A stretch of 64,000 bases of DNA from Burkholderia cepacia. Lineage in GTDB: Bacteria > Pseudomonadota > Gammaproteobacteria > Burkholderiales > Burkholderiaceae. A program made the translations under genes and the position numbers. The notes beneath the pieces were generated by a model, which was not told the DNA's origin, searched no databases, and saw only the letters and a program-made list of their open reading frames with translations. Where the stretch lies: contig NZ_CP073638.1 of the NCBI RefSeq assembly GCF_029962485.1, forward strand, positions 558,001 to 622,000, read 5' to 3'. Positions 7,017-52,021 of this stretch are shown piece by piece. Numbering within the stretch: position 1 is the stretch's first letter; every line of letters begins with the position of its first letter.

Positions 7017-7029
7017 CAGGATTTTTCCT

Positions 7030-33092: not shown

Positions 33093-33643
33093 GAGACAGC
33101 GAGAGAAAGCGCGTTGCGCGTACGGCGATCGTGAGCGGACGGCGGGCAGGTTGCGCGTGCCGACAGCGTGTCGGTGCGACGCTTCCGGCAGGGAAGCGGA
33201 TTCGGGAACGAAGGACATCTGACGGATCCTGAGGTCGGTTCGTCCATGCAACGGGCGGCCGCCAGCGGCGGTGCTTGCACATCGGGACACCCCGCCCGGT
33301 GCGGCTGCTGGACCTCGGGTCGATGGCAGGTCTCCTGGCTCGCGGGTCGTCATCCGTGCAGGCCTTCCCGGTTTCCCAGTGGCATGCAGTGGCACGGATT
33401 CGCCGCTCACAGTTGCGGGGGCAGCCGCAGATTCGAGGCGTTGCCCCTCCTGCGTTCCCTTTTGATCCCATCTCTGGGAACCATCGTAGGGCGGAACAAT
33501 AGCATCAAAATATCGCAAAATCCACCAAAGCCACGACAGGCGGGGGATTCACGGGTATTCGTGATTTTTCAACCACGTCAAAGATCTGCAGAATTCGTCA
33601 AAATCCGGCTATCATTTACGCCAAAATTACGCCGGGCGAAAGG
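33093..33643. other. btuB leader and host-prophage junction region
   Basis: A 551-bp gap holding the cobalamin riboswitch (about 33315-33475, minus strand). It is followed by an AT-rich stretch of about 170 bp before the integrase start that should contain the btuB promoter and the phage left attachment site. No tRNA is present here. The att core cannot be defined without the right prophage end. Confidence 0.6.
33315..33475 (-). ncRNA. Cobalamin riboswitch
   Basis: Read on the minus strand, the region has the conserved cobalamin elements in order: AAAAGGGAACGC near 33475-33455, a GGTGCAA-equivalent GGGGCAAC core, two GCCACTG words, and the B12 box GAGCCAGGAGACCTGCC (33341-33325). It lies about 230 bp upstream of btuB and is expected to repress it when cobalamin is bound. 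Ends are approximate. Confidence 0.92.
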
Positions 33644-34657
33644 ATGGCAAGTTATAGAAAACGAGGCAAGACGTGGCGCGCTGAAGTAGCGCGCGGGGGC
33701 ATCCGAGAGTCCAGCACGTTTGACACCAAGGCTGATGCTATCGCATGGGCGACGAAGCTCGAGGCAGAGATCGATGCAGGGAAGCGTCGATCCTACTCCA
33801 AGATTCCCAAGACATTGTCCGATGGCTTCGATGAGTATCTGGAGAAGGTGTCGCCAGGTATGGGCAAGCACGAATGGAATAAGCAGCGTCTCAAATTCTT
33901 CCGGGAATCCATGGGTGATATCGTCGGCGAGTTGATGCGGGCGATCAAGCCTGAGGCGATCAGTGTATGGCGCGATTCGCGGTTGAAGGTGGTGAAGCCT
34001 TCGACAGTAAATCGTGATCTGAATTTGCTGTCTGCCGTGTTCTCGGCGGCGAAAGACGATTGGAAATGGATTCACTCGAATCCGGTTCATGAGGTAAAGC
34101 GACCTCGGAACCCCCCGTCACGCGATAGACGCGTTCCGGAAGGTGACGCGGTCGCGATGTGTGGCGCATTAGGGCTCACCAACGATTGTCGTATCGAGAA
34201 GAACGAGCACTACGTCGCACTGGCATTCTTGCTGGCCCTCGAAACTGCAATGCGACAAGCGGAGATTGTGAATCTCACGTGGCCAAACGTGCATTTCGAG
34301 GCGCGCTATGTGCATTTGCCAAAGACGAAAAACGGGGATGCCCGTGACGTTCCGCTGTCGATACGCGCGATGGAGTTGCTGCAGCGGTTGCCGCGGATTG
34401 AGGGAGAGGAGCGGTGCTTTCCGATCAAGCAAGCGAGAGTCGACTACTTGTGGAGAAGCAACCGCAACAGGCTCGCAAAGAAAATGCCGGGGATCGCTGA
34501 TTTAAATTTTCACGATTCGCGGCATGAGGCAACGACGCGACTGGCCAAGAAGCTGCATGTGCTGGCGCTCGCAAAAATGATCGGCCACCGGGATCTGAAG
34601 TCGTTGATGATCTACTATGACGAAACGGCGGCCGAACTGGCGGCACGACTAGACTAA
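33644..34657 (+). CDS. int: Prophage tyrosine-type site-specific integrase
   Basis: 337 residues. An N-terminal arm-binding-like region (MASYRKRGKTWRAEV), a SAM-like core-binding domain (about 55-140) and the catalytic domain follow. Active-site residues are visible: Arg204 in ETAMRQAEI, Lys in the KTKN turn, HDSRHEA (His290, Arg293), GHRD (His315), and the nucleophile Tyr near 324-325 in MIYYDE. It catalyses phage integration and excision. It marks the left end of the prophage, next to the btuB leader. Confidence 0.95.
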   Translation: MASYRKRGKTWRAEVARGGIRESSTFDTKADAIAWATKLEAEIDAGKRRSYSKIPKTLSDGFDEYLEKVSPGMGKHEWNKQRLKFFRESMGDIVGELMRAIKPEAISVWRDSRLKVVKPSTVNRDLNLLSAVFSAAKDDWKWIHSNPVHEVKRPRNPPSRDRRVPEGDAVAMCGALGLTNDCRIEKNEHYVALAFLLALETAMRQAEIVNLTWPNVHFEARYVHLPKTKNGDARDVPLSIRAMELLQRLPRIEGEERCFPIKQARVDYLWRSNRNRLAKKMPGIADLNFHDSRHEATTRLAKKLHVLALAKMIGHRDLKSLMIYYDETAAELAARLD

Positions 34658-35084: not shown

Positions 35085-35390
35085 TTAATCGGTTTTCCGG
35101 CGCCGGCCGGGCCGTGGCGTCGGCAGCGTGCCGCGATTGCACCGTGCCCATTCGAGTACGTCACTCGCGAACCAGCGGCGCTGCGCCTGCTGGCTCTCGA
35201 CCGGCCGGATGCCGGCCGGAAAATCCTTGCGGGAGACGACTCGTAGCTCGACGGTGGCTTTCGACAGGCCGAGCCATTTTGCGATTTGTTCGGTGCTCCA
35301 CAGCGTTTCATCGAGCCTCTTCGGCTGCTCGAGCGCCGCGACTAGCCGGCGCAGCTCGGGGACCAACTGCTGCAGTTCGCTCATGTCCAT
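35085..35390 (-). CDS. Helix-turn-helix (AlpA/excisionase-like) protein
   Basis: 101 residues. The centre contains WSTEQIAKWLGLSKATVELRV, a MerR/AlpA-type winged helix, followed by FPAGIRPVESQQAQRRWFASDVLEW, as in AlpA and Xis-like proteins. A Pro/Arg-rich tail ends it. It is the last gene of the leftward prophage operon and lies next to int, so it may act as excisionase or regulator of excision. Its start shares a base with the upstream stop (TAATG). Confidence 0.78.
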   Translation of the reverse strand: MDMSELQQLVPELRRLVAALEQPKRLDETLWSTEQIAKWLGLSKATVELRVVSRKDFPAGIRPVESQQAQRRWFASDVLEWARCNRGTLPTPRPGRRRKTD

Positions 35391-35656
35391 TATTGGGGTG
35401 CTCCTGTGCTGGCGGCGTCGATCGGGTTGTCCGGGTGATCGCCCAAAGGACGGGTTGTCCCTGGCAGGGAGCGGGCAAGTACGGCGTCGACAGCTTTCCG
35501 TGCGGCGTTCAGTTTGTCCGATTGCCAGCCTTCGTCAATCGGTCCCATGTCATCGACATGGCGTAGCGTTTCGATCGCCGCGAGTGCGGCTTGCGCATTG
35601 ATAGGCGCAGGCTGTTCGGATGCGGAAAAATTGGAAGCTTGCATTTGCGTGGTCAT
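35390..35656 (-). CDS. Hypothetical prophage protein (88 aa)
   Basis: 88 residues, soluble and Ala-rich, with no recognised domain. A GGAG site 5 nt before ATG 35656 supports the start. The stop shares one base with the next start, so it is translationally coupled to the AlpA-like gene. Function unknown. Confidence 0.65.
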   Translation of the reverse strand: MTTQMQASNFSASEQPAPINAQAALAAIETLRHVDDMGPIDEGWQSDKLNAARKAVDAVLARSLPGTTRPLGDHPDNPIDAASTGAPQ

Positions 35657-35720: not shown

Positions 35721-36173
35721 CTAGAAAGGCACGTCAGGGTCGTCGGAGGGCGGAACGTGGGGAGGATCGGAGGCCGGGTGGCATGGCTTGGGCTTGCGAA
35801 ATGCGCGCACACGAATGCGGATCATGTCCTTCCCGGTCATATCGCGGACGTCGAGCAAATCGCGAAATGCCTTGTATCTGGCTTTGCTGCGGGTGCTCGC
35901 GGTCACCGTGAACCAGGCTTCGTATTCGAACTCGTCGCGCCACGGCGGGAGGCAACGCCACTCGCGCAGTACCGGCGCGTCGACGAGCTCGCCGTATTCG
36001 ACCTGGTCAACGGGGTGATAACGGCGCTCCTCTTCGCTCTTGTCGCCATCGATGACGACGCAAAGATAATGGCCGTCCGCGTTCACGATGATCCCAGGCT
36101 CGCCGTAGCATTTCACCTGCCGGCCGCGCTCGGCCGGTACGCCGTAGTGTTTGCGGATGTATTCGAAGCTCAC
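35721..36173 (-). CDS. Hypothetical protein in PRTRC operon (150 aa, GTG start)
   Basis: 150 residues starting at GTG 36173, which overlaps the ThiF stop (GTGA). The N-terminal part (about 1-80) reads like a compact beta-rich fold (GEPGIIVNADGHYLCVVIDGD). The middle is WFTVTASTRSKARYKAF, and the tail is Pro/Asp-rich. No family is recognised. Its tight coupling to the ThiF gene suggests a joint role, but it is not one of the named PRTRC proteins known to me. Confidence 0.65.
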   Translation of the reverse strand: MSFEYIRKHYGVPAERGRQVKCYGEPGIIVNADGHYLCVVIDGDKSEEERRYHPVDQVEYGELVDAPVLREWRCLPPWRDEFEYEAWFTVTASTRSKARYKAFRDLLDVRDMTGKDMIRIRVRAFRKPKPCHPASDPPHVPPSDDPDVPF

Positions 36174-36934
36174 TTAGCCCTCTCCGATTTAGCGATAGGC
36201 ACCGGCCGCACTTGGCCTGTCTTCAGGTTGATGAACGCACCGCACCACGTCAGGCGCGCATGCCGGAAGAATTCCCACAGGATCGCGAGCCCCTGCGTTA
36301 CGACTGCCTGATTGATGAATAGCTCTTGTCGCTCGAGCGCTTCGGCGAGGCTGCAGCTGGGCGTGTCGTCTTCGGGAATCGTCGTGTCGATCAGCTCGGG
36401 CAGCACGTCGTACGGCCAGCGCAGCGGCGTACTGCCGGCGACATTCTTGGTGTTGCCAGTCACGTTTTTGTGTGCGCCGAACAGCACCTGTGCGTCGCTC
36501 GCTCGGTTTCCGAGATCCATCACGTAGCAATTCGACGCGCGCAGGGTCGGCTCGAGCTTCGCGCGAGCGGCCGCGCTGTCCACGCACATGATCGTGAGCG
36601 CGGGCGCGCCGCGCACAAGTTCGTCCGGGCCGGCATGCACAGGTCGGCCGCACCAGTCGATGCCGAAGAATGCGTTGATGCGGTGAACGAGTACGACGCT
36701 TTTGTGCAGGCCGATGTCGGCGGGGCTGAACATCTGCCGGCCGACGTTCGCGCTACTGATCGTGTCGGCGTCGAACGCGGTTACGTGCAGGCCGGGATGG
36801 CCGAGCTCGACAAGCGCATGATTGAGCCGTGCGAGGCCCGTCAACATTTGCGAGCCAGTGCCGCCGCATCCGATCAAGGCAACCGTGACGCGCCGATCGC
36901 TGAGAAAGCGGGCCGGTGTCGTGTGGTGGGTCAT
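36170..36934 (-). CDS. PRTRC system ThiF family protein (E1-like)
   Basis: 254 residues. The start at 36934 overlaps the upstream stop (ATGA). It has the E1/ThiF Rossmann motif VALIGCGGTGSQ (residues 18-29), then DADTISSANVGRQ (Asp55, Arg66) and Lys78, the usual adenylation residues. A candidate catalytic cysteine, Cys194, is in TPSCSLAEAL, and a C-terminal FINQAVVTQG helix follows. E1-like proteins adenylate the C-terminus of ubiquitin-like proteins. The flanking A, B and C genes supply a peptidase, an E2-like protein and a ubiquitin-like protein. Confidence 0.9.
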   Translation of the reverse strand: MTHHTTPARFLSDRRVTVALIGCGGTGSQMLTGLARLNHALVELGHPGLHVTAFDADTISSANVGRQMFSPADIGLHKSVVLVHRINAFFGIDWCGRPVHAGPDELVRGAPALTIMCVDSAAARAKLEPTLRASNCYVMDLGNRASDAQVLFGAHKNVTGNTKNVAGSTPLRWPYDVLPELIDTTIPEDDTPSCSLAEALERQELFINQAVVTQGLAILWEFFRHARLTWCGAFINLKTGQVRPVPIAKSERAK

Positions 36935-37311
36935 ACCGTCCTCCACCATGGCGCGCCGACGTCTCGACCGATCAACGCGGCGCATTCGGTAATCGCGCGG
37001 CGCGTCGCGCGCTCGCGTTCCATCTGCTGTGCGGCGACATCGTGCCGCGCATCGATGTCGTCGTGGGTGAAGTGGCGAAACGCGCCTGCGCCAGCGTGCG
37101 CGGTTACGTAATCAGCGAAGTGCGTCACGTCGATGCGGGCCGCGCTCGACAGCTCGAACGCGTCGGCGCGCGAGCCGATCGAATCGAACGCGCGCCACGT
37201 GGCGGTTGCGTGCGGTCTGACGTGGATTGCGGTGCAGTCGCGGACTGTGTGGCGCGTCGTTTCCCACCCTGCGGCGCGCGCGGCGAGTTCGAGCATGTCG
37301 AGTTGGTTCAT
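36931..37311 (-). CDS. Hypothetical protein between PRTRC A and ThiF genes (126 aa)
   Basis: 126 residues starting MNQLDMLELAARAAGW at 37311; both ends overlap neighbours by ATGA, so its place in the cassette is fixed. The protein is soluble, His- and Ala-rich, with a probable beta-rich start (ETTRHTVRDCTAIHV) and a helical end. It is not a named PRTRC component that I recognise and may be a phage-specific addition. Function unknown. Confidence 0.65.
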   Translation of the reverse strand: MNQLDMLELAARAAGWETTRHTVRDCTAIHVRPHATATWRAFDSIGSRADAFELSSAARIDVTHFADYVTAHAGAGAFRHFTHDDIDARHDVAAQQMERERATRRAITECAALIGRDVGAPWWRTV

Positions 37312-38108
37312 GCGGCTTTCTCCGTCGACGGAAAAAATGCCTGTACCGGCACGCGCAGCGTGATCATCTTGCCGAGTGCGCACAGGCGGAACGCAACGCT
37401 CGGATTGGCCGTGCCAACGCCGCCGATCACGCCGGCGATCTTCACTTCGCCGGCATCGTCTGCGTCATCGGTCGCGCTGAAGCCTGCCGGGCCGGTGCCG
37501 TGGCTGTGAAGGTCGAACGCGAGGCTCTCGTCGTCGGCCAGGGCCGGACGATTGATAGTGATCGCGGTCGGCGTGGAGCTGGTCACTTCGACTTCGCGGT
37601 ACACCAGTTCCTTGCTCGTCTCGTTCCAGACGATCCACGCGGCATGCTCGTTCGGCGCGGCGCCGGCGGCGTCGGTTGCGAACCGGCGAAGGTGCGGCTC
37701 GGCGGCGCTGATGCGCCCGAACGCGAACTCGATTTTTGCGTCGATCGAGCCGTACGGCGGACGTGGGCGGGCGCCTTCGATCGGCACAACCTGTTGAATC
37801 AGGTGCAGCCACGGGCGGCGGATCTCGACGAACAGGCCTTCGGCCGCGAGCAGGAAGCGGTGGCCGACGTCGAGCAGCGGCGCGAATTCCGCGTGACGCG
37901 GCACGGTCGCCACCGGCGCGCTATCGAACAGTGCATTGTCGAGTGCGATGTTCTCGTCGTCGGCCCGCGCGGCGATCGCGCGGTGCTGGCCGGCGGTGAC
38001 TTCGTCGGCAACGGCGCGCGTGAACGTCGACAGCGCCTTGCCGAGCTGTTCGAGTACGGCGCCTGTGGTGGTTTCGAATTCGGCTTTGATGGTTTCAATT
38101 TTGCTCAT
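37308..38108 (-). CDS. PRTRC system protein A (JAMM/JAB metallopeptidase)
   Basis: 266 residues. The C-terminal half has a complete JAMM zinc motif: Glu154 in APNEHAAW, then LHSHGTGPAGFSATDD with His201, His203, Ser211 and Asp214 (HxHx7Sx2D). JAMM enzymes remove ubiquitin-like proteins or trim their C-termini. The N-terminal 110 residues are specific to PRTRC A proteins. The intact motif predicts an active enzyme. It probably matures or recycles the ubiquitin-like protein C of this cassette. Confidence 0.9.
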   Translation of the reverse strand: MSKIETIKAEFETTTGAVLEQLGKALSTFTRAVADEVTAGQHRAIAARADDENIALDNALFDSAPVATVPRHAEFAPLLDVGHRFLLAAEGLFVEIRRPWLHLIQQVVPIEGARPRPPYGSIDAKIEFAFGRISAAEPHLRRFATDAAGAAPNEHAAWIVWNETSKELVYREVEVTSSTPTAITINRPALADDESLAFDLHSHGTGPAGFSATDDADDAGEVKIAGVIGGVGTANPSVAFRLCALGKMITLRVPVQAFFPSTEKAA

Positions 38109-38113
38109 GACGA

Positions 38114-38827
38114 TTAGCTCCGTTGCGTGATTTTTTTAATGGCGGCGGCGACGGTCATTTCGCTGCTGACTAGCCGCTCAGTGGGAAATTCGGCACCGTC
38201 GAGCAGCTCGACCCATAGGTCGGCGGCGCTGCCACCGTTGATCAGCTTCGGGGCGTTCGGGTGCGTGAATCTGCTGCGAAAAAACTCATCGGCTTCGTAT
38301 TGCTCGATTTCTGCGAGCGTGGGGTTAGCTGCGATGTCCACGTTGCCGGTGCAAATCCGGCCGTCGGTGCTCACGTTGAAGTAGGGAGCTTGGTAGACCT
38401 GCGTGCCGGGCTTCGGTCTGCAGTTCTCTGCGAGCGCAAACACGTAGCGAGATTCCCCTCGAGCGACGAACAGCAATGCGGGGTGGTGCGTGACCGCGGA
38501 GCGTTGGCCGATCGGCGGCCTGGCTGAGAACCAGACCTGGCGCTGCGCGGCCGGCGTCCACCAGGCGACGACACCGGGGGCGGTGAAAATCGCCCGCTCG
38601 TGAATGAATCCTTCATGCCCGACCTGCTTTGACGCCGCGGCGACGAATTCGGCCAACTGCGCGCGCGTGACCGGTGTCCCGGCCATTAGCGTCGGCGCGC
38701 CGTCGACCACGCGGGCCGAGTGCTTCGTGACGTATACCTGGCTGTCGTGTGCGTTCTTGTAAATCAGCAGGGCAGAGTGCAGATCGAGCGACACGTCGCC
38801 GTTCCCATAAACATCGACGCGGCTCAT
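38114..38827 (-). CDS. PRTRC system protein B (E2-like)
   Basis: 237 residues. The segment APYFNVSTDGRICTGNVDIA (residues 147-166) resembles the E2 active-site stretch (NxxxxGxIC), with Cys159 as the candidate catalytic cysteine. The N-terminal portion matches PRTRC B proteins (ALLIYK, VTRAQLAEF). The start overlaps the F-protein stop (ATGA). An E2-like transfer role between the E1-like ThiF and protein C is inferred from motif and context. Confidence 0.87.
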   Translation of the reverse strand: MSRVDVYGNGDVSLDLHSALLIYKNAHDSQVYVTKHSARVVDGAPTLMAGTPVTRAQLAEFVAAASKQVGHEGFIHERAIFTAPGVVAWWTPAAQRQVWFSARPPIGQRSAVTHHPALLFVARGESRYVFALAENCRPKPGTQVYQAPYFNVSTDGRICTGNVDIAANPTLAEIEQYEADEFFRSRFTHPNAPKLINGGSAADLWVELLDGAEFPTERLVSSEMTVAAAIKKITQRS

Positions 38828-39885
38828 ACGCGCACCTGTACCTTGACGGGTTCGCCGTCGATATCCGATCCGTCGGGAGTCGAGATCAACATGACCAAAT
38901 GCGAAACGGCCTTGGCGAGCGCCGCGGTGTTGCGCATGCGATCAAGCCACGTTCCGAGTGCGCGACCATTGGTGGAAATGTGGAGTGCTGCGCACGACTC
39001 AGGGTCGCCGCACTGCATTTCACCTTGCCAGAAATCGTCAAGAATGCGTCCGAGGCCGTCGCCCTGATCCCAGGCGAGGATCAGTGAATAGTCCAGGCAG
39101 TATTCGCTCGTATCCTTCAGGTCGACGCGGGCAAATGGGCCGCCGGTGGTGATCGTCTGGTGGATCGCATCGCACGCATCGATGACAGCCCAGGCGACGA
39201 GATTCGTGTCGTAATAACGGCGTACCTCGGATGCGTCAAGCACGCGCTCTGGCGTGATGGCCCACGCTGGCGCGCTCGCGAAGAACTCGGCACGCCGCGG
39301 AACGTCGATGTGGTCGAGGAACTCCTGATCGGAAAGCACCGGATCACCTGGCGCGGAGTTCATGTCGCGAAGGTCGTCGAGTGCGGCAACTTCGTCTTTG
39401 TTGCTGTACCAGTACATGTATTCGGCTAGCCCCATCGCCTCCTGCGGCGTGCACACTGACGGTAAATAGTGGTGGCAGGCCTCGTACAGAACTGAAAGCA
39501 CGGTTTGGCCGAGGCCCGGTTGAATCGATTCGAGGCGTCGAATGCCCGAGCCAATGAATCTGATCGGCCCGCTTCCCGCTCCTTCGGCCGTCGTAATACG
39601 TACGATCGCGGTGTCGGTCATGTTGTCCGCGTCTGAGATCGCGAGGCTCCAGTCAAACGTACCAATATCGCTGGTGATTTCTTTCCATATGCGCGGCATC
39701 GCATTCAACGCCAAATCGCTTTCAGTCGACGAGTCGTCGAGCTTCGCGGCGTCAGCTTCACTAAGCTGTCGGCCGCGAAGCAGCGCCAGCGATAACCTGC
39801 GCATGAAATCGGCATCGTCGCCGATCGTGTAGCGCGTCGGCACATCAGGCGCGATGCGGGGTAGGGTGAGCGGTGCAGCGATCAT
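38824..39885 (-). CDS. PRTRC system protein F
   Basis: 353 residues, soluble and acidic, with no catalytic motif that I recognise. Length, position between the C and B genes, and sequence segments such as GQTVLSVLYEACHHYLP and YCLDYSLILAWDQGD fit the PRTRC F family. Both ends overlap neighbours by ATGA. Its biochemical role is unknown; it could be a scaffold or substrate adaptor. Confidence 0.82.
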   Translation of the reverse strand: MIAAPLTLPRIAPDVPTRYTIGDDADFMRRLSLALLRGRQLSEADAAKLDDSSTESDLALNAMPRIWKEITSDIGTFDWSLAISDADNMTDTAIVRITTAEGAGSGPIRFIGSGIRRLESIQPGLGQTVLSVLYEACHHYLPSVCTPQEAMGLAEYMYWYSNKDEVAALDDLRDMNSAPGDPVLSDQEFLDHIDVPRRAEFFASAPAWAITPERVLDASEVRRYYDTNLVAWAVIDACDAIHQTITTGGPFARVDLKDTSEYCLDYSLILAWDQGDGLGRILDDFWQGEMQCGDPESCAALHISTNGRALGTWLDRMRNTAALAKAVSHLVMLISTPDGSDIDGEPVKVQVRV

Positions 39886-40067
39886 GGCAGCAGCGGAACC
39901 AGTGTCGACGGCAGGCGCAGGAGTTCGGCCTTCCCATCGTTGGTCGAGGCTACACGCGCCACGCTGCGCGCGAGCGGTGCGTCATACTTGCCGATCGCGG
40001 TCGGCAGGCGCTGGCCCTGATTGAGCGTGTCGGCGCGCAAGCGCTTTCGAAGTTCGCGGAGTGTCAT
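39882..40067 (-). CDS. Small protein in PRTRC operon (61 aa)
   Basis: 61 residues, basic, starting MTLRELRKRLRADTL at 40067 and overlapping the C-protein stop and the F-protein start by ATGA at each end. No family is recognised. The close coupling makes it very likely real; it may be a small partner of protein C or F. Confidence 0.65.
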   Translation of the reverse strand: MTLRELRKRLRADTLNQGQRLPTAIGKYDAPLARSVARVASTNDGKAELLRLPSTLVPLLP

Positions 40068-40558
40068 TTCGGTTGCGGGCAGTAGCGTGCATGCAGCGCG
40101 TTGATGAACGCGACTTCTTCGTCGAGCAGCGGGCATACGTGCGCAGTGCTGAATCGGTCGAGTTCGGCGAGGTAAGCGCACACGGGGTGCGGAACGATGC
40201 AGTCGACTGCGCGTATCTCGTCGAGCTTCCGGCGTGCGTCGTCGAAGTCGATCGGAGTGGCATTCACGATGCCGACAGCGATGCCCGCGATGTAGGTTCG
40301 TCCGTCTTCGCCAGTGGATATTTTGAGCGTGTAGTCGCCGTGCTTGACGGGGCTATTTCCCTTCGTGCCGACGGCCCGCCGGAACGTGTAGACGTTGCGG
40401 TTGGCCTTGATGAGCGGTCCCTCGATTTCAGCGTTCGTCAATTCGGGATAGGTCTGCGAATAGAAGTCGCGGACCTGTTGCAGCGTGAATGCCGGCGCAG
40501 GGTCGGCGAGCTTGGCGCCGTTGTACGAGAATTCGCGTGCGAGCGTTTCGATTTGCAT
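40064..40558 (-). CDS. PRTRC system protein C (ubiquitin-like) with C-terminal extension
   Basis: 164 residues. The first 67 match PRTRC C: REFSYNGAKLADP, FYSQTYPELTNAEIEGP and YTFRRAVGTKG, a beta-grasp-like module ending in Gly67. Protein C is usually only about 70 residues, so the 97-residue tail (68-164) is an unusual extension; it is soluble with four cysteines near its end. If protein C works like ubiquitin, the tail would need removal after Gly67, perhaps by the JAMM peptidase encoded in the same operon (inference). Confidence 0.85.
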   Translation of the reverse strand: MQIETLAREFSYNGAKLADPAPAFTLQQVRDFYSQTYPELTNAEIEGPLIKANRNVYTFRRAVGTKGNSPVKHGDYTLKISTGEDGRTYIAGIAVGIVNATPIDFDDARRKLDEIRAVDCIVPHPVCAYLAELDRFSTAHVCPLLDEEVAFINALHARYCPQPK

Positions 40559-40572
40559 GTCGTTGTCTCCGA

Positions 40573-41130
40573 TCAGTACATATCGACGCCATCGTCGGCG
40601 GTGTCCGCCGGGTCTTCGTCGTGGTCCTCACGAACAGCGTCCGGATCCCCGGGGCCGTCGACGTCCGGGCGATCTTCGCGAGTGTCCGGCGGAGTGTCGT
40701 TATCGGTGATGGTCATCTGCCGCGGATCGGTTTCGCCGATGCCGTCGCTCGGCGGAGGGGCATCAGCGCCGCCGGCCTTCGCGGCTTTCGGCGGACGACC
40801 GCGGCCGCGCTTGCCGGGGGTGCCGGCCGTGTCGCCGTTGTTCGGCGCGGGAAGCACGGGCGCGGAATTCGGTTGATTTGCGGCGGCGCATGCGCGCGCC
40901 TGATCGAGCAGCGACGTTGCGCCGGGCTCGTACACCTCGACCGCAGCGGCGAATTCCGCGTCGAGTTCGGCCGGCGTCGCGAGCAGCGACAGCGGCCAGC
41001 GCTGCTTTTCGCCCTTGCCGTTCGGCATCGGCGTAACGTTGACGCGAAGGCTTTCCGGTCCTTCCGCCGTGATCAGGATGTTGATGCTCGTTGTCTGTGC
41101 GAGCGCGTGCAGTGACGTAAACAGGGACAT
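40573..41130 (-). CDS. PRTRC system protein E
   Basis: 185 residues. The N-terminal 85 residues (MSLFTSLHALAQTTSINILI, then PATPAELDAEF-type text) match PRTRC E. The rest is a low-complexity tail with an AT-hook-like KRGRGRPPKAAK at about residue 107, then a highly acidic end. The AT-hook-like patch hints at nucleic-acid contact. It leads the named PRTRC genes in the operon, 14 bp before the C gene. Confidence 0.85.
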   Translation of the reverse strand: MSLFTSLHALAQTTSINILITAEGPESLRVNVTPMPNGKGEKQRWPLSLLATPAELDAEFAAAVEVYEPGATSLLDQARACAAANQPNSAPVLPAPNNGDTAGTPGKRGRGRPPKAAKAGGADAPPPSDGIGETDPRQMTITDNDTPPDTREDRPDVDGPGDPDAVREDHDEDPADTADDGVDMY

Positions 41131-41151: not shown

Positions 41152-41442
41152 TCAGGCCGCGAGGCCGTCGTAATTGCGGTCGGCGAAATCGGTATCGCCG
41201 GGGTAGCGGTTCGAGCCGTCGGCCCGATGCCAGCAAAATAGGGAGCCGCGCCGGTGCGGGAACCAGTAGCCGGCGCAGTCGCAGCGCATGCGTGCCGTAT
41301 TCCGGCGATTCATCCAGTGGTCGACGCGGTATTTCCGACGGTTGCACGTGCGGCAGGCCGGAAGGAGCGTGTAGCGGTCGGGGTGGCGTCGCAGGCAGCG
41401 GCGCGCGGCGCAATGCGTGCAGCGAACGTGGCAGCGCGGCAT
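41152..41442 (-). CDS. Cysteine-rich putative zinc-ribbon protein (96 aa)
   Basis: 96 residues with nine cysteines, arranged as CHVRCTHCAARRC, CRTCNRRK and CDC...C, as in small zinc-ribbon or treble-clef proteins. The frame with these cysteines is preferred over the overlapping frame because it has a GGAGG site 8 nt before ATG 41442. It could bind nucleic acid or act as a RING-like adaptor next to the ubiquitin-like cassette; neither is shown. Confidence 0.65.
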   Translation of the reverse strand: MPRCHVRCTHCAARRCLRRHPDRYTLLPACRTCNRRKYRVDHWMNRRNTARMRCDCAGYWFPHRRGSLFCWHRADGSNRYPGDTDFADRNYDGLAA

Positions 41443-41445
41443 CGA

Positions 41446-41652
41446 TCAATCCTCCGCGTCGCCGGCCTGGAGGCGTTTGATGTCCGCGCGCGTAGCTGCG
41501 CGGCGCCGTTCGCGGGTTTCGCGAGCGCGCGCCGACGATTCGAGCGCGTCACGCACGCTGGCGCGCTGGATCGCGGTGTCGAAATCGCCGCGCATGTGCA
41601 GGAGTTGCCACTCGATGCGCAGCAGATGGGTTGGCAGGTGAGCTTTGTGCAT
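41446..41652 (-). CDS. Small hypothetical protein (68 aa)
   Basis: 68 residues, helical, rich in Arg and Ala, starting MHKAHLPTHLLRIEWQLLHM at 41652; 3 bp before the cysteine-rich gene. No family is recognised. A longer upstream frame is rejected because it overlaps the 41-residue gene. Confidence 0.55.
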   Translation of the reverse strand: MHKAHLPTHLLRIEWQLLHMRGDFDTAIQRASVRDALESSARARETRERRRAATRADIKRLQAGDAED

Positions 41653-41659
41653 GGCCGGC

Positions 41660-41785
41660 TCACGCGCAGTAGGTGCTCGCGCACGACGCGTCCGGTGCTT
41701 CGTCGCTGTATGTCCACGCGACACAACCGAAACCGACCGCGAGCCAAAGCAGCACGATTTTCCAGAGGGGCATGGGCTTGTTCAT
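41660..41785 (-). CDS. Very small membrane protein (41 aa)
   Basis: 41 residues starting MNKPMPLWKIVLLW at 41785, with one hydrophobic helix (about 7-24) and a short acidic, Cys-containing tail. A GAGGTG site precedes the ATG. It ends 7 bp before the next small gene. Found by translating the minus strand directly; no family known. Confidence 0.5.
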   Translation of the reverse strand: MNKPMPLWKIVLLWLAVGFGCVAWTYSDEAPDASCASTYCA

Positions 41786-41792
41786 GCGCACC

Positions 41793-41933
41793 TCAAATTC
41801 CGAATGCGGGGGCGATCGCGCTGGCGATCAGGTAAAGAACGACGAGCGCGACAAGCGGGTGCCAGTCACGCATCTGCAGCGAATGCGACTTAAGCCGGGT
41901 GAATTCGCTGCATTGGATCAGGATGTTAAGCAT
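41793..41933 (-). CDS. Very small membrane protein (46 aa), first gene of leftward operon
   Basis: 46 residues starting MLNILIQCSEFTRLKSH at 41933, with a hydrophobic C-terminal helix (about 25-45). A GAGG site lies upstream. It is the first gene after the two operator-like sites at 41984-42030, so it opens the 15-gene leftward prophage operon. Confidence 0.5.
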   Translation of the reverse strand: MLNILIQCSEFTRLKSHSLQMRDWHPLVALVVLYLIASAIAPAFGI

Positions 41934-41983: not shown

Positions 41984-42030
41984 TTAAGCACACTTAACTG
42001 CTGGGTGCAAAGAAAATTTAGTGTGCTTAA
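41984..42030. promoter_or_regulatory. Two repressor-operator-like sites before PRTRC operon
   Basis: TTAAGCACACTTAA (41984-41997) and TTTAGTGTGCTTAA (42017-42030) are near-identical dyads in opposite orientation. The same word occurs between the repressor and cro genes. They lie between the leftward operon start (41933) and the rightward small gene (42118). Confidence 0.7.
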
Positions 42031-42117: not shown

Positions 42118-42414
42118 ATGAATGGTGACGAAGGAAAGGGCGGGGGCCGTATTAATCCGGGGGATCTGGCCGTGATCGCCCGATGTGCGAACGAGGCACA
42201 TATCGGGCTTATGGTGCGGGTGATGGGTCCGCATGCAACGCCTGACTACGACTGGGATGTCGAGTTGCTGGGCATGCCGGTAGAGGGCTACGCGGCCGGG
42301 CATGACCGCGTAGGGGTGTTCAGGTGCGCGGCGGTTTTCGACTGGAACCTAGGACGCTTGGTGGGGTCGGCGCGTTCAAATCGAGTAGTTCGCCGCGAGC
42401 CCGTTCATGCATAG
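42118..42414 (+). CDS. Hypothetical prophage protein (98 aa)
   Basis: 98 residues starting MNGDEGKGGGRINPGDLAVI, with a GAGGGTG site upstream. The middle (MVRVMGPHATPDYDWDVELLG) reads like a natural small beta domain. Its last 95 bp overlap the end of the repressor gene on the other strand. No family is known; it is divergent from the PRTRC operon and shares its operator region. Confidence 0.55.
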   Translation: MNGDEGKGGGRINPGDLAVIARCANEAHIGLMVRVMGPHATPDYDWDVELLGMPVEGYAAGHDRVGVFRCAAVFDWNLGRLVGSARSNRVVRREPVHA

Positions 42415-42784
42415 CAAGGACCGCTTTCAATGGTCCGTGTACCGCCGTGACCGCTAGCTCGGTCATGCCGAGTGCGATTGCGCGCTTTAAGTCTGCATAG
42501 AACGCTTGCAGCTCTTGTGGCATGTCGTCCTGGGCGTCCTTCATCGGCCCGCGCTTTTCCCACAACCATTCTGGCCGGACGCGGAGGAAGCGCGCGACGC
42601 CAAAAATAGGCGCGGCCTTCAGATTGTCCACGTTGACTTTGCCGCTCGCCCATTGCGAAACAGCTGACGGGGAAACACCAGCTTTCGCGGCGATTTCCTT
42701 ATCGTCAATTGACGATCCCAATTCCGCCTCACGAAGTTCCTTGGCGTACCTGAGTCGTCCTACGAAGGTGTCTAGGTCGTTCAT
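42320..42784 (-). CDS. XRE-family phage repressor (CI-like)
   Basis: 154 residues. The N-terminal helix-turn-helix (about 25-65) includes IDDKEIAAKAGVSPSAVSQWASGK. The C-terminal part is short and helical, without the Ser-Lys autoprotease domain of lambda CI, so induction must work differently or through another factor. It is divergent from the cro-like gene, with operator-like dyads between them. It is the likely lysogeny repressor. Confidence 0.88.
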   Translation of the reverse strand: MNDLDTFVGRLRYAKELREAELGSSIDDKEIAAKAGVSPSAVSQWASGKVNVDNLKAAPIFGVARFLRVRPEWLWEKRGPMKDAQDDMPQELQAFYADLKRAIALGMTELAVTAVHGPLKAVLAMHERARGELLDLNAPTPPSVLGSSRKPPRT

Positions 42785-42809: not shown

Positions 42810-42844
42810 AAGAGCACTTCACTTTTGAAATTAAGTGTGCTTAA
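42810..42844. promoter_or_regulatory. Repressor/Cro operator region
   Basis: TTAAGTGTGCTTAA (42831-42844) is the exact reverse complement of the site at 41984-41997. A weaker half-matching AAG-N4-CTT dyad lies at 42810-42819. Both sit between the divergent repressor (start 42784) and cro-like (start 42854) genes. Confidence 0.75.
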
Positions 42845-42853
42845 ATTCGGCCC

Positions 42854-43135
42854 ATGGAAAACGACCTGCGCATCGCATACGCGAGCGAAATCATTGATCG
42901 ATTGGGCGGGACCGGGGCGGCCGCTGCTCTCTTCGAGATCGACGACGCTGCCGTGTCTCAGTGGCGGCGGAACGGTATCCCGAAGCCGCGGATGCAGTTC
43001 ATTTCTGTTGCGCGGCCGGACGTACTTGTTGGTCTGGGTTCATGCAATGGCTCGGATCGGGCCGGCATGCACGAGCGTCAGTCACGTGGTCTTGCACGAG
43101 TAGGGCCCGGGATGCGTCGCAGGCCTGCCGCATAA
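42854..43135 (+). CDS. Cro/YdaS-like helix-turn-helix protein
   Basis: 93 residues. The N-terminal half has AAALFEIDDAAVSQWRRNGIPKPRM, a Cro/YdaS-type helix-turn-helix in which GIP and P follow the recognition helix. It is divergent from the repressor and is the first rightward early gene. The C-terminal 30 residues look unstructured. It probably antagonises the repressor at the shared operators. Confidence 0.8.
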   Translation: MENDLRIAYASEIIDRLGGTGAAAALFEIDDAAVSQWRRNGIPKPRMQFISVARPDVLVGLGSCNGSDRAGMHERQSRGLARVGPGMRRRPAA

Positions 43136-43350
43136 ATGCAGCGAACGAACTTGCGTCCTTCGACTCGTTCAGGGCGCGCTGGATGGCGTCGCGCATGTGT
43201 CGTTTGAGTTGTGGTTTCGGCGTCGCTGTTGCGTGCTGAATTCTGAATTTCTGCATTTTCATGATGATGCTCCGTTTGGCGATGGGGCAATTCTCTCGAA
43301 AACGCTGGCACGTTAACAGGATGAAATTCGGTGAAATTCAAGGGGAAATT

Positions 43351-43872
43351 GTGACTCACCAAAACAGCCAAACGGCGTGGATTGATGTGCTTTACGCGTC
43401 AGTGTTGAAGACGCCGGGCAAGGTCGAGGATGCCGCGCGCTATTTGACAGATCGGCGCGGCGTCCGCATTACCGGCGAATCGCTTCGGCTCAGGTTGCGT
43501 GAGGCCTGCGATACGCGTCTCTCCGGTGAAATGTTCGAGCTCCTGGTCGAGTGGATGCTCGACAAAAACCAGCCGCATGCGCTTGACGCGGTGCATGCGT
43601 TCAACGCTCGATTCGGTCTCATTTCGGCTGAAACGCCGACGGCAACGGGCGCCGACAGCGTACGTGCCTTGCTCGATTCGGCGCTTACGGTCAGCGCGAA
43701 GGCTGGCAGTCTTGCTGAAGATGTTCGGCGCGCATCAGATGATGGCGTGATCGACCGGCGAGAGGCCGAGGCGATCGAGCGATCCGGGCGAGCAGCGCAG
43801 CAGCAAATCGAACAAACGATCGCAATCGCAAAGAACGCGGCGAATCATTCCCGGCGCCGCCGCGGATCGTAA
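43351..43872 (+). CDS. CII-like / YmfL phage regulatory protein
   Basis: 173 residues from GTG 43351, chosen because AAGGGG lies 5 nt upstream; in-frame ATGs at 43321 and 43261 lack such a site. The sequence AWIDVLYASVLKTPGKVEDAARYL and the following RRGVRITGESLRLRLR resemble phage CII-type (YmfL) regulators with a helix-turn-helix, followed by a long helical C-terminus. It lies between cro and the replication genes, the usual CII position. Confidence 0.7.
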   Translation: MTHQNSQTAWIDVLYASVLKTPGKVEDAARYLTDRRGVRITGESLRLRLREACDTRLSGEMFELLVEWMLDKNQPHALDAVHAFNARFGLISAETPTATGADSVRALLDSALTVSAKAGSLAEDVRRASDDGVIDRREAEAIERSGRAAQQQIEQTIAIAKNAANHSRRRRGS

Positions 43873-43898: not shown

Positions 43899-45266
43899 AT
43901 GGGCGCACACGACCCATTGGACACGCACGCCCGCACGTCGGCCCCAGAGGCCGAACAAAGCATCCTTGGGGCGCTGTTGCTTGATAACGGCGCGCTTGAG
44001 GAAATTGCGGGCATCGTCTCCGAGGTGGATTTCACGATCGGCGAGCATGCGCTCGTGTTCAAGGCGATCCGCGAGCTGATTCAACGTGGTGCAATCGCAG
44101 ATGTGGTGACGGTGTTTGAGCGGTTGCATTCCGTTGATGCAAAGGTCGATCAGCCGCTCGCATTCTTGAATGACCTGGTGCACGCAACACCTAGTGCGGC
44201 GGGCGTTCGGCATTACGCGGAGATTGTCCGCAACCGCTCAATTTCGCGGCGGATGCTGCGCGTGTCCGAACGGCTGCGAGATGCCGTATTGAAACCCGGC
44301 GGCAAATCACCCGTTGAACTGTTGGATCTCGTGCAGGGTGAGCTATTAAAGATCGCGGATACGAGCAGCGCGGCCGAAGATGAATTTCGGCCGATCTCGG
44401 CTGCTCTGACGTCCGTAATTCAGCGGATCGACGAACGTTATCACGCGGGCGGTGCTGCGCAAATTGGCGGGACCGCAACGGGATTTGTCGATCTTGATCG
44501 CCATACCGACGGCATGCATGGAGGTGAGCTGATCGTGGTTGCAGGTCGCCCATCAATGGGCAAGACCTCGTACGCGATGAACATTGCGGAGCATGTTGCG
44601 GTCGAGCTTCGTTTGCCGGTCGCGGTGCTGTCGTTGGAAATGCCTGACGACCAGCTGGCGACCCGGATGCTTGCCGGAACATCACGCATTAACCAGCACA
44701 AGCTTCGAACGGCGAGTCTGCGTGACGACGATTGGTCGAGGTTGACGCACGGAACGCAAGTCCTCGTTGATGCGCCGGTATACGTGCTCGACAGCTCTTC
44801 CATCACGCCCCTGCAGTTCAAAGCAAAGCTCCGCCGTTTGCAGCGCGTCGTCGGCAAGCTCGGCTTGATCATCGTCGACTATCTGCAACTGATGTCGGGG
44901 GACGGAGGAGCGGGCGAGAACCGCACCAGCGAGGTGTCGCAAATATCGCGCGAGTTGAAAAAGACAGCCAAGGAGTTCGATGCGCCTGTAATTGCTCTGT
45001 CACAGCTTAATCGCGGGCTCGAGCAGCGCCCGAACAAGCGTCCGATGATGTCCGATCTTCGCGAGTCCGGTGCTATCGAGCAGGACGCAGACGTAATTCA
45101 ATTCATTTACAGAGACGAGGTGTACAACCCGGATAGCGCGGACCGGGGAACCGCAGAGCTAATTATTGCAAAGCAACGGAACGGGCCACTTGCCACAGTG
45201 CGATTGGCATTCCGAAATGAATTGGCGAAATTCGAGAATTTTGCAGAACCCACGGGGGCATATTGA
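43899..45266 (+). CDS. dnaB: Replicative DNA helicase DnaB (phage)
   Basis: 455 residues, normal for DnaB. The N-terminal domain (about 10-105, EQSILGALLLDN) is followed by the RecA-like domain with Walker A GRPSMGKT, Walker B LIIVDYLQLM, and ALSQLNRGLEQRPNKRPMMSDLRESGAIEQD, the DnaB signature. It is the hexameric 5'-3' helicase that unwinds phage DNA. It overlaps the next gene (TGATG), which encodes the probable initiator or loader. Confidence 0.96.
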   Translation: MGAHDPLDTHARTSAPEAEQSILGALLLDNGALEEIAGIVSEVDFTIGEHALVFKAIRELIQRGAIADVVTVFERLHSVDAKVDQPLAFLNDLVHATPSAAGVRHYAEIVRNRSISRRMLRVSERLRDAVLKPGGKSPVELLDLVQGELLKIADTSSAAEDEFRPISAALTSVIQRIDERYHAGGAAQIGGTATGFVDLDRHTDGMHGGELIVVAGRPSMGKTSYAMNIAEHVAVELRLPVAVLSLEMPDDQLATRMLAGTSRINQHKLRTASLRDDDWSRLTHGTQVLVDAPVYVLDSSSITPLQFKAKLRRLQRVVGKLGLIIVDYLQLMSGDGGAGENRTSEVSQISRELKKTAKEFDAPVIALSQLNRGLEQRPNKRPMMSDLRESGAIEQDADVIQFIYRDEVYNPDSADRGTAELIIAKQRNGPLATVRLAFRNELAKFENFAEPTGAY

Positions 45267-46315
45267 TGGCGGGAGTGCCAACATCATTTACCTGGCGACG
45301 AGCGATGACCGCGAGCGACTTGCCGAGCACGACAAAGCTCGTGTTGTTCGTCATTGCGGAATACGCCAGCTCGATTGACGACACGTGCTGGCCGTCGATC
45401 GATCAGATCGCGGAGCGCGCTACGTTGTCGCCGCGTGCAGTCACGAAGCATCTTGACGTAGCGGAAACGGAGGGCTGGATCAGGCGATGGAAGTCGCGAA
45501 AGAACGGTCGGAAGTGGGCGCACGGCCACTATCGACTGACGGTGCCCGAGGTCGTCGCCAGGCGCGCGCGCGATGACCTGAGCTACGACATTGCGGGTGC
45601 GCAGGCGAATGAATCGGAACGACGTTCCTGCAACTCCGGGGAGTTTGACGAACCACGTTCCGAAGATGCGCAAGAAATAGGCAATTTGGAACCACGTTCC
45701 GGTAACTCGGGCGAGTTAGTGGAACCAGGTTCGCGTGATGCACAGGAATTAGGCAGTTCAACGTCAGATTTGGAGAGTTACAGGAACCACGTTCCAACTA
45801 ACTACCCAATGAATAGAAATAACGAAGCCTTATCTCTCTCTCAAACGTCGTCGGTATACCAGGGTGGCGAGGGTACAGGCAGAGAGGGAGATCGTCAAGA
45901 GGGCGTCGAGACGCTTGCGGCATGGATGGCCCGCCGACTTCGCGACAGCGATCCAGGTGCGGGTGAGCCCGACCATCGCAAATGGGCGTCGGACGTTGAC
46001 GAGTTGCTTGCCGACGGCTTCGAGCCACAGCAAATCGTGAAGCTGTGGGCGTGGGCGTTGCAAGACGGTTTCTGGAAATCCGTGATTCGTTCGCCGGCGA
46101 GGCTGCGAAAAAACTGGGACCAGGTTAGGGCAAAGCGAAACCAGTCGTCCAAGCGTGAGTGGCAACCGTCGCCGATACAGGCACAGGACGATCGACGCTG
46201 TGCGCACGTTGGCGAAGACGGCGAGCGGTGCGTCAACGCGGCGACATCCATTCTCGGCGCGGGCTCGGCGCGTCGTGGCTACTGCCGGCTGCACGTCGGC
46301 CTTTACGAAAATTGA
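45266..46315 (+). CDS. Phage replication protein with winged-helix domain
   Basis: 349 residues from ATG 45266, which overlaps the DnaB stop. The N-terminal 110 residues form a winged helix (WPSIDQIAERATLSPRAVTKHLDVAE), as in phage replication initiators (O-like). A low-complexity linker (about 115-215) contains three related PRSxNSGE-type repeats. The C-terminus has CAHVGEDGERC and CRLH, a possible zinc site. It probably recruits DnaB to the phage origin; the origin itself was not located. Confidence 0.8.
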   Translation: MAGVPTSFTWRRAMTASDLPSTTKLVLFVIAEYASSIDDTCWPSIDQIAERATLSPRAVTKHLDVAETEGWIRRWKSRKNGRKWAHGHYRLTVPEVVARRARDDLSYDIAGAQANESERRSCNSGEFDEPRSEDAQEIGNLEPRSGNSGELVEPGSRDAQELGSSTSDLESYRNHVPTNYPMNRNNEALSLSQTSSVYQGGEGTGREGDRQEGVETLAAWMARRLRDSDPGAGEPDHRKWASDVDELLADGFEPQQIVKLWAWALQDGFWKSVIRSPARLRKNWDQVRAKRNQSSKREWQPSPIQAQDDRRCAHVGEDGERCVNAATSILGAGSARRGYCRLHVGLYEN

Positions 46316-47673: not shown

Positions 47674-48177
47674 ATGAGTCCGAATCAACCGTTTGCCGAC
47701 GTCGGCGGTGCCGACGAGTCGCGCGCGTCGGGCGGCGGCGTTGGAAAGGCGATCGAATCGCCTCCGCCGCCGCCCGGGGTGCATTTCGAGTCCGCGCACC
47801 GCAAGGTGTGGGATTACCTCTGTCTCGCGCTGCGTGCGGAGGGCGTGCCGCACCGCACTGCTGGCGTTGCGCTGTCGATCGTGTGCGTTGACTTCGTCCG
47901 GTGGGTGAAGGTCGAGCTGCAACTGCGCGACTTCGAAAAAATCAATCACGGATCGTTCATGGTGCAGACGCCGAACGGTCATACGCAGCCGCATCAACTC
48001 TATTACGCGGCGAAGTCGCTGAAAGAGGGGCTGCTCAAGTGTCTACCGGAAGCCTGCCTGACGACGCCGTCGATGCTGATCGCGAAATCGAAGATCGAAG
48101 ATCCGAACCCACAGGACGACCTGTTCGACCAGCTGCTCAATCACGCGCGCTCGAGGCCGACGAGCTTGCCGGTCTGA
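47674..48177 (+). CDS. terS: Phage terminase small subunit (P27 family)
   Basis: 167 residues. After a Gly/Pro-rich N-terminus, the sequence SAHRKVWDYLCLALRAEGVPHRTAG, then HPHQLYYAAKSL-type text (QPHQLYYAAKSLKEGL) and LLKCLPEACLTTPS, fit P27-type small terminases (PF05119). It recognises the phage DNA packaging site and recruits the large subunit. The large-subunit frame overlaps its 3' end. Confidence 0.87.
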   Translation: MSPNQPFADVGGADESRASGGGVGKAIESPPPPPGVHFESAHRKVWDYLCLALRAEGVPHRTAGVALSIVCVDFVRWVKVELQLRDFEKINHGSFMVQTPNGHTQPHQLYYAAKSLKEGLLKCLPEACLTTPSMLIAKSKIEDPNPQDDLFDQLLNHARSRPTSLPV

Positions 48178-51184: not shown

Positions 51185-51953
51185 CAACCGCGCTGCGCCG
51201 CGAGCGTTCAGCGTGAAGGCGAGCGACGACGGCACGGTTGCGACTGTCTACCTTTACGACGTGATCGTGACCGACGATTGGTGGGGCGGCGTCTCCGCGC
51301 AGTCGTTTGTGCAGGCGCTCGCCGGGATCACGGCCGATACGATCCACCTTCGGATCAACAGCCCGGGCGGCGACGTGTTTGCCGCACGCGCGATGGAAAC
51401 GGCAATTCGCGGCCATTCCGCGCGAGTCATTGCGCACATCGACGGCGTTGCCGCGAGCGCGGCTAGCTTCGTGATGCTGGCCGCTGATGAGGTCGAAATC
51501 ACGGACGGCGCGTTCGTGATGATCCATAACGCATGGACGTTCGCGATGGGAAATGCGGACGATCTGCGCGAATCGGCGAAGCTGCTCGACGCTGTCGACG
51601 CGTCGCTGGTGCGAACCTACGCGAAGGAGACGGGGCAAAGTGAGGACGATATTTCCGCATGGATGGCTGCCGAAACGTGGATGTCATCCGACGAAGCTGT
51701 ACAACGCGGTTTTGCTGATCGGCTCGCGGGTGCAGGCGCGGATGCGCAGGCGTCCGCGTGGAATCTCTCGGCGTACGAACGGGCGCCGAACGCGGCACAT
51801 GCGCAGCCGCAGCCGCGTGCTCCTGGCGCGTTCGCCCCGCCGGAGCCGCAACCGGAGCAGCCGCAGGAGCCGAAGCCGGTTCCGAATGCGCCCGCTGCTG
51901 CCGCGGATATGGAAGCACTGCGCCGCCGGCTGGAGCTTGCACAACGTTCGTGA
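51150..51953 (+). CDS. Phage head maturation protease (ClpP-like, S14)
   Basis: 267 residues. The ClpP-like domain has RINSPGGDVFAA, the catalytic Ser103 in GVAASAASF, His126 in MIHNAW, and Asp in the next helix region. A Pro/Gln/Glu-rich tail (about 205-255) follows, which may serve as a scaffold-like part. It cleaves the capsid delta domain or scaffold during prohead maturation. The capsid gene follows after a terminator hairpin. Confidence 0.94.
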   Translation: MRRNRILQLLNDNRAAPRAFSVKASDDGTVATVYLYDVIVTDDWWGGVSAQSFVQALAGITADTIHLRINSPGGDVFAARAMETAIRGHSARVIAHIDGVAASAASFVMLAADEVEITDGAFVMIHNAWTFAMGNADDLRESAKLLDAVDASLVRTYAKETGQSEDDISAWMAAETWMSSDEAVQRGFADRLAGAGADAQASAWNLSAYERAPNAAHAQPQPRAPGAFAPPEPQPEQPQEPKPVPNAPAAAADMEALRRRLELAQRS

Positions 51954-51972
51954 CGCGTTCCCGCGTCGATTC

Positions 51973-52004
51973 AAAGGGCTGCCTTCGGGTGGCCCTTTCT
52001 TTTT
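51973..52004 (+). terminator. T-tailed hairpin just before major capsid gene
   Basis: Stem AAAGGGC (51973-51979) with GCCCTTT (51992-51998), an inner TGCC/GGGT-like pairing, then CTTTTT. It sits 20-50 bp upstream of the capsid start, between two genes that should be co-transcribed. It may be a partial terminator or a processing point shielding a capsid mRNA. Confidence 0.65.
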
Positions 52005-52021
52005 CTGTCGATGGAGACTGT

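Follow-up and report, generated by a model that had tools for sequence, protein, structure and literature searches.

Operons of the class designated type 6d combine a ubiquitin-like (Ubl) protein, a JAB peptidase with an N-terminal alpha+beta domain, an E1, an E2 and an alpha-helical protein, and in the available part of the survey that describes them (Iyer, Burroughs and Aravind 2006, PMC1779556) they are listed in bacteria and not in phages, the phage Ubl/JAB pair given there being the lambda tail proteins I and K. PRTRC cassettes are mentioned in the accessible parts of PMC7466150 and PMC12420198; no tested function for PRTRC was found in the literature searched, and no phage-borne PRTRC was found by title or abstract opening in the open-licence literature that mentions the name. 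The subject here is a PRTRC cassette of six genes within a temperate prophage of ~41 kb, lying in a stretch of 64,000 nucleotides of Burkholderia cepacia (NZ_CP073638.1, positions 558,001 to 622,000; hereafter the window) that is part of a 7.7-Mb genome in three contigs. Ubl tagging is best known as an anti-phage weapon, bacterial Ubl defence systems including Bil, Bub and the type II cyclic oligonucleotide-based antiphage signalling system (CBASS) with Cap2/Cap3, and the presence of a set of such components in a phage raises the possibility that phages put the same chemistry to their own use.

The cassette and its conserved residues

All six proteins exceed the curated NCBIfam cut-offs for PRTRC families, so that chance similarity is ruled out and the original prediction, which had assigned them to PRTRC ThiF, A, B, C, E and F, stands in both identity and place. 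All are encoded on the minus strand and, in the direction of reading, they are E (40573-41130; TIGR03741 3.6e-17, 62.3 bits against a cut-off of 37.95), C (40064-40558; TIGR03738 2.1e-30, 104.7 against 45.95), the alpha-hel2 protein F (38824-39885; TIGR03742 4.3e-31, 108.1 against 58.4), the E2-like protein B (38114-38827; TIGR03737 9e-59, 198.6 against 131.45), A, which joins DUF2016 to a JAMM/JAB peptidase (37308-38108; TIGR03735 1.6e-62, 210.5 against 101.8), and the E1-like ThiF (36170-36934; TIGR03736 2.5e-84, 282.5 against 144.75). The Pfam cut-offs for ThiF, DUF2016 and Prok-JAB, Prok-E2_D, alpha-hel2 and Prok_Ub were also passed; the Pfam PRTRC_E model gave 21.4 against a cut-off of 26, and E contains an AT-hook-like stretch (AT_hook 0.029, likewise below cut-off).

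The predicted active sites are intact. ThiF carries the nucleotide-binding motif as GCGGTGS, reading from 36934, and all 34 aligned sequences share its Cys194; the JAMM motif of A (E...HSHx7SxxD) is complete and invariant in 32 of 32, with W100 invariant and R97 and R98 nearly so; and in B both Cys159 and His189, 30 residues further on, are invariant in 47 of 47. These alignments are of representatives with 42-81% (ThiF), 30-85% (A) and 26-90% (B) identity to the window, and took in 33 of the 39, 31 of the 41 and 39 of the 41 representatives found, respectively. A structure model of B reached a predicted local distance difference test (pLDDT) score of 87.5, with VIA rows 1-14 from E2 entries, and the ubiquitin-like nature claimed for C is confirmed by its sequence families (TIGR03738 and Prok_Ub), a beta-beta-alpha-beta-beta topology characteristic of the beta-grasp and a conserved C-terminal Gly. 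Searches of solved structures by sequence for B, C and A gave nothing useful or weak matches. Comparison with six relatives gave ratios of nonsynonymous to synonymous substitution of 0.05-0.08 for ThiF, 0.06-0.16 for A, 0.10-0.15 for B, 0.09-0.13 for F, 0.13-0.26 for C and 0.31-0.38 for E, with 0.20-0.33 for the small protein S described below; the cassette is under strong purifying selection.

The six genes belong to a leftward operon which, judged by gene direction, runs from ~41.9 kb to 35.1 kb. The order is E, C, a gene for a protein of 61 amino acids (aa), F, B, A, a phrog_5086 gene (36931-37311, minus strand, 5.6e-25), ThiF and, directly after it, a phrog_16342 phage gene (35721-36173, minus strand, 1.8e-53), and neighbours from E to the phrog_16342 gene overlap by 4 bases or lie at most ~15 bases apart. 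The cassette was thus correctly placed in the main leftward operon, but a unit of six genes is too narrow a description, the 61-aa, phrog_5086 and phrog_16342 genes being part of it as well. The phrog_5086 gene is present in just part of the 80 viral loci introduced below.

The modifier C, its tails and a small partner

The Ubl domain of C occupies residues 1-67 (40358-40558), ends in GTKG and is followed by a tail of 97 aa with a helical domain. All 82 C proteins compared, those of 80 viral loci, of the window and of phage BgVeeders33, end the Ubl part in the same GTKG, which is preceded by the residues of FRRAVGTKG in 81, a constancy that is partly built in since FRRAVGTK was one of two search patterns for these loci; plasmid C proteins and those of cassettes without JAMM also end in GAKG, GRKG, KTKG, GTLG or SNG. 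What follows the GTKG is far more variable: the tail is absent from 3 of the 82, has 1-3 aa in 7 and 50-75 aa in 55, and exceeds 75 aa in 17, over a range of 0 to 100 aa, and the tails are exchangeable. In all nine loci without a detected JAMM (L019, L020, L187, L188, L189, L226, L228, L210 and L268, L numbers denoting loci) C stops exactly at the Gly, the C of L020 being assigned by place, as it matches neither PRTRC_C nor Prok_Ub, and that of L228 lying below both cut-offs. In loci with JAMM a tailless C occurs in 14 of 137 (5/85 and 9/52; 13/127 without 10 repeated loci), and the resulting association of tail with JAMM (9/9 against 14/137) has a p of 1.3e-8 in a tally assembled by hand, in which tails of 1-5 aa count as tails and a JAMM counts as absent when the fetched stretch lacks it. 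Outside this tally stand L184, where C was not found, L211, which has a relative of A without the exact motif and no tail, L182, L183, L185, L186 and L190, all with JAMM, and four genome stretches without a C, B or ThiF match. A single plasmid clade shows three states: A together with a tail in L227 and L229, neither of the two in L019, L020 and L228, and A with a tailless C in L213. Given that tails are missing from cassettes that lack JAMM, A probably matures C by cutting behind the Gly; furthermore, as tailless C proteins exist beside JAMM, A probably also removes conjugates.

The 61-aa protein, termed S (39882-40067, minus strand), ends in LLP and its gene overlaps the C stop. An open reading frame (ORF) with the ending [VL]L[PA] stands directly upstream of F in 79 of 80 viral loci, while the same ending is found upstream of B in 1 of 80 and upstream of A (72), ThiF (75), C (82) and E (67) in none, in a test devised after the endings had been seen. 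S is a gene of its own in 57 loci and in 22 forms an in-frame fusion with C, following its GTKG; in the plasmid cassettes L016 and L017 a comparable small ORF, which the records leave unannotated, ends in LPLIF or LPMVF. From this pattern S appears to be a conserved, previously unannotated subunit between C and F. As S occurs either separate or fused, the Ubl and its partner would be made as two proteins or as one precursor, for which eukaryotic ubiquitin fusions offer a parallel.

Phage-borne cassettes and the absence of ParB

A scan of IMG/VR, in which the viral assignment of contigs was made by others, with an alignment of C gave 88 relatives, of which 80 were examined. In 75 of the 80 all six genes are present in the order E-C-F-B-A-ThiF, and in the other five stretches one to four of the six are missing. 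In a sample of 50 viral records, made up of 41 of the 80 C loci (contigs of at least 25 kb) together with L182-L190, the portal family PF04860 was found in 26 and PF05136 in 17 of the remaining 24, so that 43 have a portal and seven have neither family, and the HK97 capsid family was found in 27. The phrog_9 terminase was found in none of the 24 records without PF04860, where terminases are of another family or missing. The cassette is common in phages and stands beside phage genes in other genomes too. For ThiF, the count of 263 relatives is an upper bound (80 kept, part of them checked). B is present in 180 plasmid records, in 10 of 65 species genomes of the genus and in 12 of 399 of the order. 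The 11 genus loci include six with the PRTRC ParB and two, the window and L202, in which the cassette adjoins phage genes; L221 falls among the phages and carries the phrog_16342 gene, L222 has just a phage-like B, and the eleventh is L216. A GTDB scan gave 38 loci, 15 with PRTRC ParB and 23 without, those closest to the phage cassettes coming from Paraburkholderia, Trinickia, Caballeronia, Burkholderia, Cupriavidus, Massilia, Duganella, Janthinobacterium and others, and only part of these match genes of this phage within 10-kb flanks. Between collections, ten pairs of loci coincide.

A FastTree phylogeny of B and ThiF with 113 leaves, which takes in loci with both ORFs, places 77 viral, prophage or prophage-like leaves in one clade (support 0.999), separate from the plasmid cassettes. 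Further lineages of viral contigs (L182/183/185/186, L184/187/188 and L189) stand apart, some with low support. On the viral contig L189 a gene for a DnaN-type sliding clamp (6303-7382; TIGR00663 just over cut-off) lies directly upstream of the E-like gene, and on plasmids L228 and L229 the PRTRC ParB has upstream of it a gene annotated as DNA polymerase III beta. The unannotated human faecal phage record MT839883.1 (6.6 kb) encodes relatives of ThiF (35%) and C (41%), hinting at PRTRC-like genes in gut phages.

The cassette behaves as an insertion module. In L034, L040, L041, L047 and L202 (L202 and L034 being the same phage) it occupies the same point of a leftward operon of the type found in Burkholderia phage KS9: similarity to KS9 ends at 10481-10486 and restarts at 10528-10547 (reverse-complement coordinates), with 5.1-5.2 kb from E to ThiF between. 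Behind the insert follows a KS9 gp35-like gene with HTH_ParB, which in some relatives takes the place of the phrog_16342 gene seen in the window. KS9 shares the leftward-operon backbone with the window, but its site is empty, its gp35 carries HTH_ParB and it has no PRTRC genes. BgVeeders33 (OK665841), a phage isolated from sewage, carries the cassette at the same place as the window, beside an integrase of 72% identity, but differs in its Mu-like tail module; its cassette is annotated just as hypothetical proteins and a dinucleotide-utilizing enzyme, and the available parts of PMC9658991 and PMC12446147 name the phage without ThiF, ubiquitin or PRTRC. The absence from KS9, and the fact that among 50,697 annotated phage records B was found in that of BgVeeders33 only, would fit a selfish or neutral cargo of plasmid origin without a phage function. 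This is very improbable, as strong purifying selection, a phage-only clade, a fixed place in the leftward operon and invariant catalytic residues all speak against it.

The gene that accompanies E on plasmids is missing. For the PRTRC ParB (TIGR03734) the genome that contains the window has three matches, none above cut-off and none in the prophage, and in none of the 80 viral loci does it stand beside E; a plasmid ParB gave two weak tblastn matches there, both after ThiF at the gp35 place. The cassette is therefore a ParB-less variant and not a full PRTRC member. PRTRC protein D (TIGR03739) had no match in the same genome, and control genomes likewise gave none. For want of a PRTRC ParB, ParB-dependent partition is ruled out, and the same lack bears on a broader alternative, the main rival to a host-directed role, in which the Ubl would be put on proteins bound to the DNA of the element (ParB-like proteins, SSB, clamp, recombinases) and serve replication, establishment or maintenance, as it would in the plasmid cassettes too. 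In several of 12 plasmid stretches read, without a control, the cassette is near genes for Lar, an N-6 methylase, SSB, DnaN or RecT. When SSB, DnaN, RecT, methylase, Lar and others were looked for in 160 viral stretches, SSB matched in L188 only, the sole DnaN match being the L189 query itself, and the structural hints that might point to such a role are all weak. A DNA-associated function is accordingly regarded as unlikely, albeit both roles may hold.

The remainder of the prophage agrees with the temperate siphophage of HK97 type that had been described from the window. It is bounded by 21-bp direct repeats at 33465 and 74456, the second beyond the window; the first (33465-33485, repeated at 74456-74476) is the probable attL core, and an inner pair of 18-bp repeats (33616 and 74390) just inside makes two candidate cores. 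The gene set runs from a tyrosine integrase (33644-34657; phrog_1 4.6e-54) through CI-, Cro- and CII-type regulators, the last CP76-like (43261-43872; 6.3e-09), to a DnaB-like helicase (43899-45266; phrog_19 1.4e-105), an O-like replication initiator (45263-46315; phrog_391 8.1e-39), the terminase large subunit (47901-49898; phrog_9 1.7e-168), a portal (49895-51184; phrog_12 1e-75), a head maturation protease (51150-51953; phrog_94 3.1e-77), an HK97-type major capsid protein (51758-53287; phrog_10 7e-68) and a tape measure protein (56323-60423; phrog_339 3.7e-226), all but the CI gene on the plus strand, with lambda-type tail L, K and I proteins encoded in the same prophage. Direct repeats and phage regulators rule out a misplaced plasmid piece. 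Tail K (Prok-JAB and NLPC_P60) and tail I (Lambda_tail_I) form a second JAB/Ubl pair of a different kind (316-1065 and 993-1625 of L269, or 63316-64625 in the frame of the window), and near the right end lie genes for a D12-class adenine methyltransferase (L269 8315-9103, window frame 71315-72103) and a SRAP-domain protein (L269 10678-11379, window frame 73678-74379). The probable attachment core lies within a cobalamin riboswitch (33308-33500; 119.2 bits, whole model), ahead of what we take to be a TonB-receptor gene, and integration would part the aptamer from the promoter formerly upstream.

On the minus strand the leftward operon opens with a hydrophobic ORF of 46 aa (41793-41933), a small ORF (41446-41724) with relatives in 33 viral loci and, just upstream of E, a Cys-rich ORF of 96 aa (41152-41442) without a Pfam match, to which ORFs at the same spot in about half of the viral loci (41) are related. 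It closes with an ORF of 88 aa (35390-35656) without a Pfam or PADLOC match and a helix-turn-helix (HTH) excisionase/AlpA-like gene (35085-35390; HTH_17 2.5e-05, below cut-off; phrog_4996 6.7e-15) that is 95% identical in BgVeeders33. A Pfam search of the small operon genes gave nothing useful, and a promoter and terminator scan and PADLOC on the operon gave nothing useful or weak results.

Control, proposed role and comparison with known systems

The CI-type repressor (HTH_3 5.5e-07; 42320-42784, minus strand) and the Cro-type regulator (P22_Cro 1.3e-06, just below cut-off; 42854-43135, plus strand) are separated by an OR-like operator, the palindrome TTAAGTGTGCTTAA (42831-42844, plus strand). 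An exact copy (41984-41997, minus strand) forms an OL-like operator between cI and the leftward operon, and a second OL-like site with one mismatch lies at 42017-42030 (plus strand). With up to 3 mismatches the window holds 4 matches to the palindrome against 0.73 expected, a number reached in 1 of 100 shuffles. A relative of this repressor is encoded in eight IMG/VR loci; in seven of them two exact sites lie 847 bp apart, as in the window, and in the remaining one, L086, two sites with one mismatch each lie near one another. The lambda repressor controls PL and PR through such paired operators, and the presence of like sites at cI/cro and at the leftward operon indicates that the operon, and with it the cassette, is probably repressed in lysogens and expressed early in the lytic cycle. 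In L052 and L058 another palindrome, ATTACCGTACGGTAAT, occurs twice upstream of the cassette, ~1.2 kb apart at ~-2350 and ~-1150 from E (no control), which suggests a different repressor type with the same control; across six loci with other repressors there was mostly no palindrome pair, in a crude scan without a control that misses the palindrome of the window itself. A conserved ORF (42118-42414), to which ORFs in 16 loci are related, lies on the plus strand across the 3' end of the repressor gene.

The arrangement of sites also bears on the possibility that the pathway is expressed in the lysogen for superinfection exclusion, the prophage tagging structural proteins of rival phages much as the bacterial Bil system is reported to do. 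The Ubl pathway is complete, the cassette is an exchangeable module of ~5.2 kb, and, like rexAB in lambda, the operon follows cI on the same strand. Nevertheless, this is quite unlikely for two reasons: first, the OL-like operators between cI and the operon match the cI/cro site, so that repression is to be expected in a lysogen. Second, the tagging of tails in the lytic cycle would presumably endanger the phage's own virions. Owing to the operators, it was set aside as first choice.

A phage Ubl conjugation pathway for host takeover or counter-defence early in infection is the preferred reading, considered somewhat more likely than not. Probable early expression, a full set for conjugation and deconjugation and strong selection together suggest an early, host-directed tool. 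In addition, anti-defence genes are carried in the leading regions of plasmids according to the available part of PMC11541004 (in which 'ubiquitin' and 'ThiF' do not appear), and taken with the neighbours of the plasmid cassettes this favours counter-defence or takeover. Of the functions first offered for the pathway, anti-host or anti-defence modification is thus preferred, superinfection exclusion is weakened and maintenance loses its ParB-dependent form. It is suggested that C is made as a precursor that A would cut behind Gly67 (GTKG|), freeing the Ubl from its tail; ThiF would adenylate the Ubl C-terminus and load it onto Cys194, from which it would be handed to Cys159 of B, and B would attach it to target proteins, with E, F and S as putative adaptors, whilst A could also take the Ubl off its targets. 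Behind its OL-like repressor site the operon would be off in the lysogen and, with infection or induction, turned on like the lambda PL operon, and the likely purpose would be to alter host proteins of defence, restriction or DNA processing that stop incoming or replicating phage DNA. The sequences compared support the set of components with their active sites, the gene order, purifying selection, the pattern of tail and JAMM and the operator-like sites, and it is from these that cleavage, conjugation, adaptor roles, timing and targets are inferred. A wider formulation, held more tentatively and at somewhat under even chances, is that a large, old lineage of temperate phages has its own Ubl pathway, derepressed early and modifying host proteins, probably those of defence or DNA processing, whose modifier is a polyprotein with exchangeable small partners, cut by JAMM in the manner of eukaryotic ubiquitin fusions. 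The phage module as found predicts early lytic timing, a precursor cut after Gly67 and a small subunit so far missed, and phage cassettes, one of them in the isolated BgVeeders33, are small and tractable systems.

The protein families themselves were already known; the phage lineage, the ParB-less form, the repressor control, the precursor logic and the small subunit were not found in the literature searched. Plasmid PRTRC cassettes, such as that of pMOL28 of Cupriavidus metallidurans CH34, have the same six families in the order E-C-F-B-A-ThiF and an unannotated small ORF after C, but the phage cassette differs in lacking the PRTRC ParB, in the extra phage genes inside it, in the long tails of C, in forming a separate clade and in lying within a prophage operon that is probably repressor-controlled. 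Such a module separates the conjugation pathway from plasmid partition. With the type 6d operons, as described in the available part of PMC1779556, it shares a B with Cys159 and the later His189 and an A with DUF2016 and its conserved Arg and Trp residues. The logic of E1, E2 and JAB is common to the bacterial Ubl defence systems too, and ThiF here matches E1-E2 defence models, but in the phage E1 and E2 are separate proteins and no CBASS cyclase was found among the operon proteins scanned, which sets the cassette apart from type II CBASS. Above all, the system resides in a phage: if the proposed role is true, phages themselves use Ubl tagging, for takeover of the host or counter-defence of a new kind, in reverse of the bacterial use of such pathways against phages.

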